Part shown: in pieces, positions 41,539 through 47,893 of the stretch
Numbering within the stretch: position 1 is the stretch's first letter
Layout: each line of letters begins with the position of its first letter
Assembly (NCBI GenBank): GCA_016930695.1
Contig: JAFGGD010000013.1
Coordinates: forward strand, 1 to 64,000
DNA length: 64,000 nucleotides
Origin: Candidatus Eisenbacteria bacterium
GTDB taxonomy: Bacteria > Orphanbacterota > Orphanbacteria > Orphanbacterales > Orphanbacteraceae
Direction: 5' to 3'
Translations under genes and position numbers: made by a program
The notes under the pieces: model-generated
The model's database searches: none
What the model saw: only the letters and a program-made list of their open reading frames with translations
Told to the model about the DNA's origin: nothing

Positions 41539-44500
41539 ATGAACGGTATGCGGCTGTCCCTCATCGCGATGGTCTGTTTCGCGGTGCTCGCCTTCGTCCC
41601 CCCCGCGGCGGCGGATTTCGTCGGTCTCGACGCGGACGGGGATCTGTCCTGTGATTCGACGGACATGCAGGTGATCCTGGAAGCCGGCGACATCGGAACC
41701 CTCCGAACGCTGGATTTGTATTTCGACGATGTTCCCGATCTCCAGTCCTGGGGATGCACCTTCTGCGTCAAGAACGGGGCGTTGGTGACCAATGAGTCCT
41801 TCGCATACTCCGTCCCGGCCGCCTGGGCGAGCGTGTCCATGAAGGACTCCGACGGCGATAACCTCACCATCTCGGAGTTCATCACAACGATGTATCCGGA
41901 TTACCGCTGCTACCTCGTCCAAGCCACGGACTGGACCGGCGCGTCGCCGATGTCCTTCCCGGCCAAAGTGGGCACCTTCTCTTATGAAGTGGCCGACGAG
42001 GGATGTCTCGGCTTCGTCATCGACGGCCCGACCTCCGGCTGGTTCAGCATGATCGTGGGCCAGGGCGATTTCGGCGATCCCGGCGAAGCCTGCGATACCG
42101 TCTCCTGTCCGAGCCAGGTGGAGCCGGTGGTGATCGGAACCGAGACGCCCGCCTGCCCGATTCCGGACGCGATGCTCTACGAGAACTACGACCTGGGGAT
42201 CCAGTTCACCGCCGCCGGCGGCGTTCCTCCCTACGGCTGGGACGTGGATGTCCTGCCGGCGGGCATGCGGATCGTCCCCGAGACCGGGGTCGTCGAGGGG
42301 ATGCCGACCGAGTTCGGCGGCTTCGCGTTCCAGGTCCGCGTGACCGACGACATCGGCCAGTTCGACGTGCGCCCCTGCTCGATCTACGTGGACAAGCCCA
42401 GGATCGACCAGACCACGCCTTCCTGCCCGGTTCCGGCCGCCACCTACGGCGTTTCCTACCCGGCGGGAACGGTCTTCCAGCTCGCCAACAGCCCGACCCA
42501 GAGCCTCTCCTGGACCGCCACCGGTCTTCCCCTCGGCATGGGGATCAACCTGACCACCGGCGAGTTGTTCGGCACGCCGACCGAGTGGGGTTGGGACATT
42601 CCCTTCACGGTCTTTTTGAACGGAATCGGTCCGACCAAGGTAGTCCTCGACCAGAGGGAGTGCAGCATCACCGCGCTGCCCATCGCGATCGACGACGCCG
42701 ATCCGGCCTGCCCGATTCCGAACGCGAACCAGGGGGTCGAATACGCGGCTCTCGTCCAGTTCCGGCCGGACGCGCCGGCGGGCTACAACAACGAGCACCG
42801 CTGGGATGTCTCCGGCCTGCCGAACGGCATGTCGATCGACGAGAAGACCGGTTCCATCAGCGGAACGCCCACCGAAGCGGGGGACTTCACCTTCACCGTC
42901 GCCCTCTTCGCGGATCCGTCCAACAAGGCGGTCGAAGATCCGATGGACACGCGGGAATGCTCCATCACGGTCGGCGAGGCGGCGAGCATTACCGTCGCTA
43001 CACTGCCGCCGGGCCAACTGTCCGCCGCCCCGGGAGCGGCCGCGACCCACTCCTTCGAGGTGGAGAACGTCGCCGGAACCCGGATCGAGCTCTCCGCGCA
43101 GGCGCGCTCCGAGAACGGCTGGGACGCGCTGGTCACCTCCTCGATGTTCTTCTCTCTCGCCCCGGGAGAGATCGAGACGGTCTACGTGGACCATGTCGTT
43201 CCCGCCGGCGCGGAATGCCCCGGCCAGAGCGATCCGGTGCCGGGCGACACGCTCTGGCTCGACGTTTTCGAGTCGCAAATCAGGCCGCAGGAACCGCTCG
43301 CCTCGGATTGGGCGTTCACCACCGCCGAGTTCTCCGCGGGGGTCGTGGTTTCGCCGCCCCAGTATCCCGCCGAGTGCGCCGATCCGGGGGATTCCATCTA
43401 CGTACAGATCGATGTGCATAACACCGGCGCCTGCCCGGAGTGGTTCGACATCGATCTGACCTTCGACAAGCCCGGTTGGTCGGCGGAGGTCGCCATTCTC
43501 ACTCCTCCGATCTGGCTCTCCGCCGGAGCCCTCGGGAGCGTGCCCGTCTGGGTGCACGTGCCGGAGGACGCGGAATGCGGCGAGCAGGTGACCATGCAGT
43601 TCAAAGCCACGGGGACGGTCTTCGGCGCCGCCGATTCCACGGAGACCGACCACTGCGCCAACAACATCTATGAAGTGAGCATCCGCGACATCTCCGGGTT
43701 GGGCGGCGAACCGGGCGATTCGGTGACCTACTGTTTCGAGGTGAAGAACGAGGGGAACTGCGACGTCATCGCCTATCCGGAGGCTTTTTCCGGCTGGCCG
43801 GTGAACTTCAACTCGGCCGAGCGCCTCATCCCGGTGGATCAGTCGGACACGATCTGCGTCCGCCATCTGATCCCGGCGGGGACCGCCGTCGGCGCGATGA
43901 TGAACCTCACCTTCATCGTCTCACCGGGCTTGATTCCCGAGAAGGATCGCGAAGCCGTCTTCCGGCCCGACACGCTCGTCGTGACCACAACCGCCCTCGA
44001 GGGCTGCGACGCGGGCGTGGAGATCACCCCTCCGGCAGGCGGCTCCTCCCATTTTCCGAATGAGTTGTTCCAGATCGCATTCAACGTTTCCAACACGGGC
44101 GGCGATCCGGACCGTTACCTCCTCTACGCGGATTGCCCGCAGGGGTGGATGGTGGATACCGAGGAGGACACCACGCCGGTGATCGATCCGGGTAACGACT
44201 ACGACGCCGTGGTGAACGTGCAGGTGCCGTCCAACGCGCTCTGCACCGACCAGGGTTGGGTCCGCCTCTACGCGCTCTCCCTCTGCGACCCGCAGACCAT
44301 GGATATCGACTCCGCCGCCTACGGCGTCATGCCTGTCGTCAATTACGAAGTGGTCGGTTACCCCGAGGATTCCACCGGCGTGCCCGGACAGAGGATGGAG
44401 TACTTCTTCCGGATCACCAACAACGGGAACTGCGCCTTCCCGACGGGGCTCATGCTCCTCAGCACGCCGGCTTGGGAGATCGACCACGGCGGCATGGACG

Positions 44501-45342
44501 AATTCGAACTCGGGCCGGGCGAATTCAGCGACTTTCATCTCGGCGTGCGGATTCCCGACGACGCCGTGCAGGGGGACGAGCACAAGTTCCTTCTCTGCGC
44601 CGACGCGGCCATCAACAAGGACAGGCAGGGAGGGGCGTGCGACTCCATCATCACCCGCGTGCTGAGCGGCTGCGAGCACGTGCAGCCGATCCTCTCCCTC
44701 GGCGACTATCGAACGGTGAATTACACCGGACCGGGAGGACTCTGGACGGTGCAGGTGCAGCTCCGGAACAACGGTCCCGGCGAGGCGCGGAACATCTCCA
44801 TGGAGATGCACGAGAACCTCAGCTGGCTTCTGATCCCGGACGCGGTCGCTTCCTACGGGAACCTGCCGCAGGGGTCGGCGAGCTACGGCGACGGGGACGG
44901 GGAAACCTTCACCTTCGATCTCTCCGGCTATCCGGGGGGGAGCTTCAACGTTTGGTTCGACGTCTCCTACGAGGACGCCTGCGGCGCGCCGCCCACCTAC
45001 CAGGTGCGGCTCGACCCGACCTTCCTCGACCCGGAGGCGTCCGCCGGCGCGCTTCCCTCGCCGACCGCCTATGTGCTGCACGGCAATATGCCGAACCCGT
45101 TCAACCCGTCGACGACCATCGGATTCGAGCTGCCGGTGGCGTCGCGCGCGGAGCTGACGATCTACAACACCGCCGGGCAGAAGGTGAAACGGATCTGGAG
45201 CGGCGATCTCCCCTCCGGCGTCCACACTTTCCAGTGGACCGGCGAGGATGATCGCGGAAACCCCGTTCCCTCGGGCACTTACTTCTACAGCCTGAAGAGC
45301 GGCGATTTCCGGGCCACCAAAAGAATGGTGCTCGTCCGATAG
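41539..45342 (+). CDS. Large secreted multi-Ig protein with FlgD-type C-terminal sorting domain
   Basis: The 1267-residue protein starts at ATG 41539 after CAGGAGG. After the signal peptide, about 170 residues of Cys-containing beta structure are followed by three putative-Ig (He_PIG) repeats each introduced by CP[IV]P: near residues 212, 297 and 391, with PTEFGGFAFQVRVTDD-type endings. From about 490 to 1150 come several NEW3/CARDB-like domains (CFEVKNEGNCDVIAYPE, FFRITNNGNCAF) with regularly placed cysteines, suggesting disulfides. The C-terminus carries NMPNPFNPSTTIGFELPV and GTYFYSLKSGDFRATKRMVL, the FlgD-like Ig tail seen on secreted proteins of FCB relatives. A surface adhesin or scaffold is likely; no catalytic motif was seen. 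Confidence 0.8.
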   Translation: MNGMRLSLIAMVCFAVLAFVPPAAADFVGLDADGDLSCDSTDMQVILEAGDIGTLRTLDLYFDDVPDLQSWGCTFCVKNGALVTNESFAYSVPAAWASVSMKDSDGDNLTISEFITTMYPDYRCYLVQATDWTGASPMSFPAKVGTFSYEVADEGCLGFVIDGPTSGWFSMIVGQGDFGDPGEACDTVSCPSQVEPVVIGTETPACPIPDAMLYENYDLGIQFTAAGGVPPYGWDVDVLPAGMRIVPETGVVEGMPTEFGGFAFQVRVTDDIGQFDVRPCSIYVDKPRIDQTTPSCPVPAATYGVSYPAGTVFQLANSPTQSLSWTATGLPLGMGINLTTGELFGTPTEWGWDIPFTVFLNGIGPTKVVLDQRECSITALPIAIDDADPACPIPNANQGVEYAALVQFRPDAPAGYNNEHRWDVSGLPNGMSIDEKTGSISGTPTEAGDFTFTVALFADPSNKAVEDPMDTRECSITVGEAASITVATLPPGQLSAAPGAAATHSFEVENVAGTRIELSAQARSENGWDALVTSSMFFSLAPGEIETVYVDHVVPAGAECPGQSDPVPGDTLWLDVFESQIRPQEPLASDWAFTTAEFSAGVVVSPPQYPAECADPGDSIYVQIDVHNTGACPEWFDIDLTFDKPGWSAEVAILTPPIWLSAGALGSVPVWVHVPEDAECGEQVTMQFKATGTVFGAADSTETDHCANNIYEVSIRDISGLGGEPGDSVTYCFEVKNEGNCDVIAYPEAFSGWPVNFNSAERLIPVDQSDTICVRHLIPAGTAVGAMMNLTFIVSPGLIPEKDREAVFRPDTLVVTTTALEGCDAGVEITPPAGGSSHFPNELFQIAFNVSNTGGDPDRYLLYADCPQGWMVDTEEDTTPVIDPGNDYDAVVNVQVPSNALCTDQGWVRLYALSLCDPQTMDIDSAAYGVMPVVNYEVVGYPEDSTGVPGQRMEYFFRITNNGNCAFPTGLMLLSTPAWEIDHGGMDEFELGPGEFSDFHLGVRIPDDAVQGDEHKFLLCADAAINKDRQGGACDSIITRVLSGCEHVQPILSLGDYRTVNYTGPGGLWTVQVQLRNNGPGEARNISMEMHENLSWLLIPDAVASYGNLPQGSASYGDGDGETFTFDLSGYPGGSFNVWFDVSYEDACGAPPTYQVRLDPTFLDPEASAGALPSPTAYVLHGNMPNPFNPSTTIGFELPVASRAELTIYNTAGQKVKRIWSGDLPSGVHTFQWTGEDDRGNPVPSGTYFYSLKSGDFRATKRMVLVR

Positions 45343-45350
45343 AGGATGAG

Positions 45351-45379
45351 TTGACGAGCCCTCGGGGTTGTGATACACT
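45351..45379 (+). promoter_or_regulatory. Strong extended -10 promoter of the RiPP-leader peptide gene
   Basis: TTGACG (45351-45356), 17-bp spacer, TGA then TACACT (45374-45379). It starts 9 bases after the stop of the large secreted protein, so the peptide gene has its own transcription start near 45386. Confidence 0.75.
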
Positions 45380-45411
45380 TCTCCTGTTCGAGAAGTGGAG
45401 GGTACATCTCG

Positions 45412-45534
45412 ATGGAACAGCAGAAAGCGAAACTACCGTACGAGAAGCCTGAGGTGGTTCGGCACGGCAACCTGAAGGAGATCACCATGACTTCCTTCAC
45501 GCCGCCGGACAACCAGATGAAGCACAGCGGATAA
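45412..45534 (+). CDS. 40-residue peptide with lasso-type RiPP leader motif
   Basis: ATG 45412 is preceded by GGAGGG about 9 bases upstream; the stop is TAA 45532-45534. Residues 10-25 read YEKPEVVRHGNLKEIT and match the lasso-peptide leader pattern Y-x2-P-x-[LV]-x3-G-x5-T, the segment bound by PqqD-like recognition proteins, with Val in place of the usual Leu. The remaining core after M26 would be TSFTPPDNQMKHSG, which places an Asp at core position 7, a permitted lasso ring position, but core residue 1 would be Thr rather than the usual Gly. No lasso cyclase, protease or PqqD gene is in the window. The gene has a dedicated promoter and terminator. The maturation product is unknown and may not be a lasso. 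Confidence 0.65.
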   Translation: MEQQKAKLPYEKPEVVRHGNLKEITMTSFTPPDNQMKHSG

Positions 45535-45567
45535 ATCGGCTCGCTCTGTCTTTGGAGGGCAGACCGG

Positions 45568-45605
45568 AGGAGGGGTCCAACCGGATCCCTCCTTCTTCTT
45601 TTCTC
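45568..45605 (+). terminator. Rho-independent terminator after the peptide gene
   Basis: AGGAGGGGTCC (45568-45578) pairs with GGATCCCTCCT (45583-45593), 11 bp with one G-T pair and an AACC loop, followed by TCTTCTTTTCT. Confidence 0.85.
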
Positions 45606-45626
45606 CCCCGGATCGCCATGCCTGTC

Positions 45627-45655
45627 TTCCGAATCGTCTATTTTTCCTGTATAAT
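45627..45655 (+). promoter_or_regulatory. Promoter for the Asp-box propeller gene
   Basis: A perfect TATAAT at 45650-45655 with a weak TTCCGA -35 at 45627-45632 (17-bp spacer), in an AT-rich patch about 40 bases upstream of the ATG at 45695. Confidence 0.45.
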
Positions 45656-45694
45656 ATAACGCACGATATTTCCCCCATCCGACGAGAGAAAGCC

Positions 45695-47893
45695 ATGATC
45701 GGACGCCGTTTGCTGCTCGCCGTCCTCGCGGGGACGGCACTTCTAGCGCCCCCGTCCGCACGGGGCGGGTACGAACGGTGGACCGTGGAGGATGGTCCCT
45801 TCGGGGGTCGTGTCGAGGCGCTTCTCGCGACGGACGCGGGCGTTCTCCTGGCGGGAACCGAGGAGGGGGGCGTCTTTCGCTCCTTCCGGAACGGCGCCGG
45901 ATGGTCGGCGGGGAACGACGGCCTCTTCTTCACCGACGTGCTCTCTCTTGTAGCGAGCCCCACCGCGCCGGAGAGCCTCTTCGCCGGCACCAGCGGAGGC
46001 GGCGTCTACCGGAGCTCCAACGGGGGGAGGAGCTGGTTCCCGGTGGTGAACGGCTTGGGAGGCATGACGGTTCGGGATCTGCGTTTCCGCGCGGACCGGG
46101 ACCGGCTTCTCGCGGCGACCACGAGCGGGATCTACCGCACCGACGACCGGGGAGCGGCCTGGCATCTCTCCGGCACGGGTCTCACGGAATCCTCGATCCA
46201 CGCCCTCGCGTCCGCCCCTTCCGCCGACTCCGTCTGGTACGCCGGCACCGGAGGCGGCGTCTTCCGCTCCGCCGACGGCGGTTCCACCTGGACCGCCCGC
46301 TCCTCGGGACTCGACTACGCGATCGTCTCCGCTCTGGCGGTGCACCCCGGCGACCCGGAACGCGTCTGGGCCGCCACCCAAGGCGGCGGCGTCTACAAGA
46401 CCATAAACGGCGGCCTCGCCTGGAGCCCCGCCCGAGTCGGGATGGGGGAGGTCTATGCCGAGGCGCTCGCCATCGATCCGGACGGGCCGGACACCCTTTG
46501 GGCGGCGACCCGGGCGGGACTCTTCGAGACCTTCGACGGCGGCGGTCTCTGGACCGTCCGGAACGCCGGGCTTCCGGACACGGTGACCCAGGAAGTACTC
46601 CTCGCGGGAGACACCCTCTTCGTCGGCATGTACCACGGCGGCGTCGCCGCCTCCGCCGATCCCGCATCGGGATGGACCGCGCGGAACGAGGGGCTCGCCA
46701 ATCGCTTTGTCCATGAAGTGACTCTCTCCCCCCACGACGGCGGCGTTCTTTGGCTCGCTTCGTACGGGGGGCTTTTCACGAGCGCCGATACCGGTTGGAC
46801 CTGGACCGCCGCCGGCCCCGGCGTCGATGCGCGGGATCTCATGAGCGTGGCGGTGAGCCCCGACGACGGCGAAGACCTCCTTGCCGGCGCCTTTTACGGC
46901 GGGATCTGGCGGAGCGAAGACGGCGGCGCCTCCTGGACCGCTTCCTCCGCGGGCATCGGATCGATGGCGACGGTCACGTCGATCCTCTACCGCCCGGGCG
47001 ACGGGACGACCGCGCTCGCGGGTACCTACGGCGGTCCCTGGCGGAGCGCCGACGGCGGCCTCTCCTGGACGCTCTCCGACTCCGGGATCGGTTCCCGGAA
47101 CGTCTGGGGGATGGCGACGTCGGCCGCCGCGCCGGATCTCGTCTACGCCGGCACCTACGGCGACGGCCTCTTCCGGAGCCGCGACTTCGGCTCCACCTGG
47201 ACGGGTGTTTCCTCGATGAGCGATAACTATGTACGAGCCGTGGCGGTCGATCCCTCCGACACGTCCGTCGTCTACGCCGGCGGCTACTACAACGGCGGCG
47301 TCTACAAGAGCGTGAACGGCGGCGCCTCCTGGACGCGGAAGAACACCGGGCTTACCGACCGCAACGTCTGGTGCATCGCCGTCGATCCCTTCGATTCGAG
47401 CCATCTCGCCGCCGCCACCGGGAGCGGCGTCTTCGAGTCGTGGGACGGCGCGGACAACTGGGAACTCTTGGACGACGGGCCGGCGCCGCGGGATACGCAC
47501 TGGGTCCTCTTCGCGGGCGGGCGCCTCGTCGCCGGCGTGTCCGGCGGTTCCGCCCCCTGGTTCGAACACGCGGAGATCGGCGTCGCCGCCGGCGGACCGC
47601 CGCCGCCTTCCTCGGCTCGTCTCGCGGCGGTTCCCAATCCCTTCAACCCCAAAACGTCTCTTCGACTCGTCTCCGCGCCCGCCGGCCGGTGGGACCTTCG
47701 CGTCTACGACCTGCGGGGCCGGCTCGTCCGCGTCCTCGGCGCCCCGTCCCTCCCGAGCGGAGGGGAGGGGATCATCGCCGACTGGGACGGCGCCGACGGG
47801 GACGGCCGTCCGCTCCCCTCGGGCGTCTACTTCGGCGTCGCCCGCCATTCATCCGGAGCCCGCGCCTCCGCCCGTCTCGTTCTCGTCCGCTAG
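45695..47893 (+). CDS. Secreted Asp-box (BNR/sortilin-like) beta-propeller with FlgD-type C-terminus
   Basis: The 732-residue protein has a signal peptide (LLLAVLAGTALLAPPSARGG) and about twelve Asp-box units of roughly 50 residues, each with the pattern [FYW][RK]S.[DN]GG..W, for example YRSSNGGRSW, FRSADGGSTW, WRSEDGGASW and YKSVNGGASW. This folds as one or two beta-propellers, as in Vps10/sortilin and YCF48 relatives. No sialidase catalytic residues were noticed. The last 90 residues begin AAVPNPFNPKTSLRLVS and end SGVYFGVARH, the FlgD-like tail. Likely exported and surface-located, with a binding rather than enzymatic role. Preceded by an independent promoter. Confidence 0.85.
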   Translation: MIGRRLLLAVLAGTALLAPPSARGGYERWTVEDGPFGGRVEALLATDAGVLLAGTEEGGVFRSFRNGAGWSAGNDGLFFTDVLSLVASPTAPESLFAGTSGGGVYRSSNGGRSWFPVVNGLGGMTVRDLRFRADRDRLLAATTSGIYRTDDRGAAWHLSGTGLTESSIHALASAPSADSVWYAGTGGGVFRSADGGSTWTARSSGLDYAIVSALAVHPGDPERVWAATQGGGVYKTINGGLAWSPARVGMGEVYAEALAIDPDGPDTLWAATRAGLFETFDGGGLWTVRNAGLPDTVTQEVLLAGDTLFVGMYHGGVAASADPASGWTARNEGLANRFVHEVTLSPHDGGVLWLASYGGLFTSADTGWTWTAAGPGVDARDLMSVAVSPDDGEDLLAGAFYGGIWRSEDGGASWTASSAGIGSMATVTSILYRPGDGTTALAGTYGGPWRSADGGLSWTLSDSGIGSRNVWGMATSAAAPDLVYAGTYGDGLFRSRDFGSTWTGVSSMSDNYVRAVAVDPSDTSVVYAGGYYNGGVYKSVNGGASWTRKNTGLTDRNVWCIAVDPFDSSHLAAATGSGVFESWDGADNWELLDDGPAPRDTHWVLFAGGRLVAGVSGGSAPWFEHAEIGVAAGGPPPPSSARLAAVPNPFNPKTSLRLVSAPAGRWDLRVYDLRGRLVRVLGAPSLPSGGEGIIADWDGADGDGRPLPSGVYFGVARHSSGARASARLVLVR

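Follow-up and report, generated by a model that had tools for sequence, protein, structure and literature searches.

A gene of 40 codons lying between two large exported-protein genes of an uncultured bacterial lineage is, judging from its conservation, a real and conserved RiPP precursor, and it probably gives rise to a linear peptide tagged with phosphate, not to a knotted lasso peptide. The gene was found in the window, i.e. the whole stretch of DNA analysed, which comprises 64,000 nucleotides of contig JAFGGD010000013.1 from Candidatus Eisenbacteria bacterium. The explanation that we favour with reasonable confidence, by analogy with the two relatives from which its chemistry is transferred (LPP and bsf), is that of an LPP-like linear Ser-phosphorylated RiPP, which would be bound in trans by B1, cleaved by B2 and exported.

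An earlier sequence-only reading of this DNA had described an extended -10 promoter, a Shine-Dalgarno sequence, a 40-codon gene and a terminator as a transcription unit of its own, and direct inspection of the window sequence located promoter, ribosome site, gene and terminator where that reading had placed them (Table 1). The promoter pattern was found once, against 0.1 expected in shuffled sequences; the hairpin, which is followed by a T-rich tail, was not above chance by the shuffle test alone (1 found, 0.9 expected), and a strong hairpin is also present 3' of each of the orthologous genes described below. An Rfam search of the window gave no match and a Pfam search with the precursor peptide gave no family. 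Two large exported proteins are encoded in the surrounding region (41539-47893); both have FlgD_ig at the C-terminus, the match in the 732-aa protein being weak, and this pair is conserved around the peptide.

Table 1. Features of the precursor gene and its surroundings in the window (positions are those of the whole stretch).
Feature	Position	Strand	Basis or remark
Extended -10 promoter: TTGACG, 17 bases, TACACT, with TG preceding the -10	45351..45379	+	Pattern search
Shine-Dalgarno GGAGGG, 9 bases ahead of the ATG	45397..45402	+	Sequence reading
Precursor gene, 40 codons plus stop (ATG at 45412, stop at 45532-45534): MEQQKAKLPYEKPEVVRHGNLKEITMTSFTPPDNQMKHSG	45412..45534	+	ORF, leader-profile match, orthologues
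Conserved leader motif, residues 10-25: YEKPEVVRHGNLKEIT	45439..45486	+	NF033521 above cut-off; Y10, P13, I24, T25 invariant
Codon of Ser28, candidate phosphorylation site (LPP Ser3 register)	45493..45495	+	Sole invariant residue behind Thr25 in 11 precursors; comparison with PMC13381572
Terminator-like hairpin, then TTCTTTTCTC	45566..45595	+	Hairpin search; hairpins also 3' of all 7 orthologous genes
Upstream neighbour (conserved): protein of 1267 aa, domains Ig-like (He_PIG), NEW3-like and, at the C-terminus, FlgD_ig	41539..45342	+	Context only, role in the peptide system not implied
Downstream neighbour (conserved): protein of 732 aa, sortilin/BNR repeats and, at the C-terminus, a weak FlgD_ig match	45695..47893	+	Context only, role in the peptide system not implied

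The assignment of the peptide as a RiPP precursor with a lasso-type leader was sustained by the NCBIfam model lasso_leader_L3 (NF033521), which scores the window peptide at 21.9 bits against a cut-off of 19, and by the conservation of the leader in orthologues; the motif that had been read in residues 10-25, Y-x2-P-x-[LV]-x3-G-x5-T, is present as Y-x2-P-x-V-x3-G-x5-T. The precursors aligned, window-type and operon-adjacent ones of the seven-genome lineage together, number 11, and at E 0.1 the same model matches seven of them. In this alignment Tyr, Pro, Ile and Thr (Y10, P13, I24, T25) are invariant, as is the Ser of Thr-x-x-Ser, and the leader Gly is kept in eight precursors, limited to the window-type ones and to those of the type found on contig C53; the conservation of YxxP...G...T in homologues therefore holds throughout for Tyr, Pro and Thr (and Ile) and in part for Gly. 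Upstream of B1 on another contig of the lineage (G004:C13, L037), tandem precursors keep Thr-x-x-Ser and have the leader Gly replaced by Glu or Asp. The orthologue leader consensus is YEKPxVxxHGxLKEIT, followed by a largely variable core, and the leader DNA pattern TAYGARNNNCCNNNNNTNNNNNNNNAYGGNNNNNTNNRRGARATHACN matches 13 of the compared loci. The motif is numbered with Tyr, Pro and Thr at -16, -13 and -1 in the LPP convention versus -17, -14 and -2 in the lasso convention.

The window's genome (G000; 3.78 Mb, 60 contigs) was compared with six relatives (G001 to G006), so that the comparison set comprises seven genomes of its phylum, all of one family. They are MAGs, with named lineage records labelled Gemmatimonadetes bacterium, bacterium, or Candidatus Eisenbacteria; since the same layout recurs in seven of them, contamination is an unlikely explanation. 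A search of relatives for the same short gene, which the sequence-only reading had proposed, recovered it in the same place in five of the six, with two copies in G002 and one each in G003, G004, G005 and G006. In each of these genomes one window-type gene has a homologue of the 1267-aa neighbour on one side and of the 732-aa neighbour on the other; the flanking proteins are diverged (about 32-41% and 48-55% identical, respectively). The two precursors of G002 flank the 1267-aa homologue, one per side, and have promoters alike (G002:C2, L044 7637-12471). In G001, a genome 82% complete, the enzyme operon is present and the precursor was not found. All seven window-type genes are shortly preceded by the architecture TTGAC-N16-18-TGnTAnnnT, and the strict form of this pattern has six matches when both strands of 12 loci (about 187 kb) are scanned, every one directly upstream of a window-type gene, with two further matches inside the window itself. 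In most of the distant pairs, though not in all, the 19 leader codons differ by more synonymous than non-synonymous changes: G000 and G003 differ by 10 synonymous versus 2 non-synonymous changes, whereas G000 and G004 show the opposite trend (5 versus 8), and the exceptions involve G004 and some G002 pairs.

Searches of the window's contig for B1, B2 and Asn synthase gave no match, in agreement with the claim that no cyclase, protease or PqqD gene is nearby. The peptide had consequently been regarded as an orphan in the window or as modified in trans; the latter is supported by B1 and B2 genes on another contig, and in the genome as a whole it is no orphan. The genome-wide search for lasso B1, B2 and C genes, likewise suggested in that reading, yielded a single B1 (PqqD, C53:51302-51496) and a single B2 (Transglut_core3, C53:49783-50094), with no cyclase in their operon. 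Beside them lies a second leader peptide (A'), 52% identical to the window peptide, and the operon runs A', B1, HPr-kinase-like gene, B2, NTP_transf_5, ABC ATPase and ABC-2 permease. Each of the seven genomes has exactly one PqqD and one Transglut_core3 gene, adjacent to each other, within a single B1-K-B2-N-ABC operon, whose order from B1 to permease, preceded by a NUDIX gene, is common to all. Precursors ahead of B1 are found in G000 (one), G003 (one) and G004 (two), and none in the operons of G001, G002, G005 and G006. In genomes carrying both, the operon and the window-type gene are always on different contigs, and a search for a promoter common to precursor and operon found none. From this gene content we infer that the enzymes act on the detached precursor in trans, the main argument being that genome-wide detection in G002, G005 and G006 yielded no precursors other than the detached ones, which, with a single RRE per genome, are therefore its only detectable substrates.

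The catalytic residues of the operon's enzymes are conserved. B2 scores 57.2 bits against the lasso_biosyn_B2 cut-off of 33, with Cys116 and His150 invariant. B1 belongs to the PqqD family yet lies below the lasso-specific PqqD cut-offs; its N38 and D75 are kept and align with N33 and D70 of LppB (chain alignment, numbering offset 18), the residues through which LppB holds the leader at its Pro and Tyr. By profile scores, B1 is nearer to the actinobacterial lasso B1 TbiB1 (40 bits); LppB, at 22 bits, ranks last among the four lasso/LPP RRE structures recovered. The HPr-kinase-like protein scores 22, below the Pfam gathering cut-off of 33.3, and its H139, G154, G157, G159, K160, S161, D177 and D178 are invariant, all eight sitting nine positions off the BsfK motif H148-G163-G166-G168-K169-S170-D186-D187; its AlphaFold model has a mean pLDDT of 60.8, with values <50 across much of the C-terminal half.

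On this basis, the conserved leader would be bound by the genome's single stand-alone RRE (B1), and B1 would hand the bound precursor to the HPr-kinase-like enzyme encoded in its operon, which may phosphorylate the invariant Ser28, and to the B2 cysteine peptidase, which would remove the leader by a cut near Thr25. The phosphate may receive a further group from the NTP transferase, and the ABC-2 exporter would carry the linear product out. In lasso precursors, B2 peptidases have been characterised as cutting one residue behind Thr, so cleavage could fall at Met26 instead; the conserved Ser, for its part, could alternatively serve peptidase recognition.

The reading of the product as a lasso peptide was not supported. 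In a true lasso peptide B1 and B2 would remove the leader, and an Asn-synthase-like cyclase encoded elsewhere would close a macrolactam between residue 1 and Asp33. Such a product would fit the leader score, the lasso-type B1 and B2 and the Asp at position 7 of the window peptide, a position that had been pointed out before and that holds if the core begins at Thr27; furthermore, Asn_synthase homologues exist somewhere in all seven genomes. However, no Asn_synthase or macrolactam cyclase is present in the operon of any of the seven, and one core from G002, TSFQPPPPK, has no Asp or Glu at all, so a lasso ring on this peptide appears unlikely. Across the 11 precursors, the core starts with Thr, Ile, Leu or Val and never with Gly, and an acidic residue at positions 7-9 is not conserved, several cores being without one there. 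Two Asn-synthase homologues, the larger ones of the window's genome, were typed: they reach 169 and 55 bits against a lasso cyclase cut-off of 525 (NF033535) and resemble XrtA-type or asparagine amidotransferases. As a positive control, the same search in G338 recovered an Asn synthase 5 kb from B2, beside a precursor with Gly1 and Asp at position 7. Taken as a full explanation, with a ring closed by a distant enzyme, the lasso peptide is very improbable.

Another class-defining modification made in trans, for example by a radical SAM enzyme that the kinase and NTP transferase would assist, is suggested by the kinase-B1-B2 sets that a radical SAM gene joins in G048, G193, G325 and, in part, G323. 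We consider it unlikely, given that the operons of the seven genomes, to which this count is limited, hold no radical SAM or other modifying enzyme. The phosphorylated peptide might instead stay in the cell and serve there as a carrier or regulator, for instance for the exported-protein genes on either side: its fixed place between the same genes in five genera, its conserved promoter and the two copies in G002 suggest a tie, but the B2 peptidase and ABC-2 exporter in every operon fit leader removal and export, and make a non-secreted role quite unlikely. As for a spurious or unmodified small protein with a chance likeness to a lasso leader, a lone frame of 40 aa and its match of 21.9 bits would by themselves make a weak case for the gene; given five further genomes whose orthologues show synonymous change and share promoter, terminators and gene order, this reading is scarcely credible.

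Elements of the system occur elsewhere. Kinase homologues at E <1e-8 were found in 31 of 379 further genomes, and several of the 20 genomes inspected carry B1, kinase and B2 in close proximity, with no cyclase nearby and a radical SAM gene common; the B1/kinase/B2 toolkit is therefore modular. In particular, clusters of kinase, radical SAM and B2 in G048, G193, G325 and G323 (L103, L104, L105, L121), with B1 in the first three, show no cyclase on the stretch inspected and a SynChlorMet-like layout, and in G231:C7:31000-49000 (L102) several short YxxP peptides accompany B1, B2, radical SAM, kinase and NTP transferase. Outside the lineage, the precursor profile gave weak matches (E 0.002-0.01), of which those in G208 and G338 look like ordinary lasso precursors, those in G323 and G046 hold YxKP peptides and the remaining ones are doubtful. 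The latter two genomes, of other lineages, encode peptides SYQKPEIKKNKHLVNVTFLS... (G323:C699, L101) and KYSKPTVKKNEPLVNITFAT... (G046:C81, L110) with a B1 gene on the same contig, and G338:C6:118264-124564 (L070/L063 region) is an ordinary lasso cluster with a GLSTDCD-core precursor, B2 and Asn synthase. Alignment of the kinase against public genome contigs returned only the same lineage and one weak Bacteroidetes match, and the peptide patterns were narrow.

LPPs were described in 2026 as Bacillota-restricted and of unknown role, and a differently assembled second version, conserved across the compared genomes of a deep, so far uncultured lineage, points to linear phosphorylated peptides being a more widespread, sometimes core, bacterial product. 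A detached precursor would escape cluster-based genome mining, and its conserved position between exported-protein genes is a concrete lead to function. We regard it as evenly balanced whether a lineage-wide, cyclase-free system of the LPP kind arose here independently of the Bacillota LPPs, with a lasso B2, a dispersed substrate gene under its own conserved promoter in a surface-protein locus and one operon serving detached precursors in trans, as a core trait and not a mobile cluster.

The closest known counterparts are the LPPs, with the consensus YxxPxVLxHQxIxFETxxS, in which the leader is cleaved after Thr(-1) and a kinase polyphosphorylates Ser3, and which are restricted to Bacillota according to their authors (Popov et al., 2026, Nat Commun; PMC13381572). 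The precursors share with them the YxxP leader, the mid-leader His, a Thr-x-x-Ser placed in the same register across the leader/core boundary, a Tyr-to-Ser spacing of 18 residues and a variable C-terminus, and the gene set shares the stand-alone RRE, the HprK-like kinase, the NTP transferase, the ABC exporter and the absence of a cyclase. In contrast to LPPs, the lineage is not Bacillota, the precursor gene is usually detached from the operon, the exporter is ABC-2 (DrrAB-like) rather than MsbA-like, and a lasso-type B2 takes the place of the archaeal-type signal peptidase LppS. No LppS-type enzyme is present in the operon of the seven genomes and, as LppS is a defining feature, the system is by its gene content termed LPP-like and not an LPP member. 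Furthermore, the B1 sequence is nearer to lasso B1 than to LppB, so that the apparent kinship rests on layout and does not imply descent.

The bsf cluster of Bradymonas sediminis (BsfA/B1/B2/C/D/K/N) makes a phosphorylated lasso peptide, BsfK phosphorylating Ser3 of BsfA with the help of B1 (PMC10368454). It resembles the present system in B1, B2, kinase and NTP transferase, in a Ser near the core N-terminus and in the constant offset of the eight kinase motif residues, whereas it has a cyclase, conserved Gly1 and Asp8 and genes clustered with the precursor, its Ser lies one residue further from Tyr, and Ile, not Thr, stands at -2. Paeninodin- and pseudomycoidin-type lasso peptides likewise combine B1/B2 with tailoring by an HPr-kinase homologue and a nucleotidyltransferase; unlike the system described here, they have a cyclase, their phosphorylated Ser is C-terminal and their leaders are mostly of the WxxP type (PMC8498205). 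The clusters of G048, G193 and G325 share B1, HprK-like kinase and B2 without a cyclase nearby, and differ in their radical SAM gene, which the operon of the window's lineage does not have.
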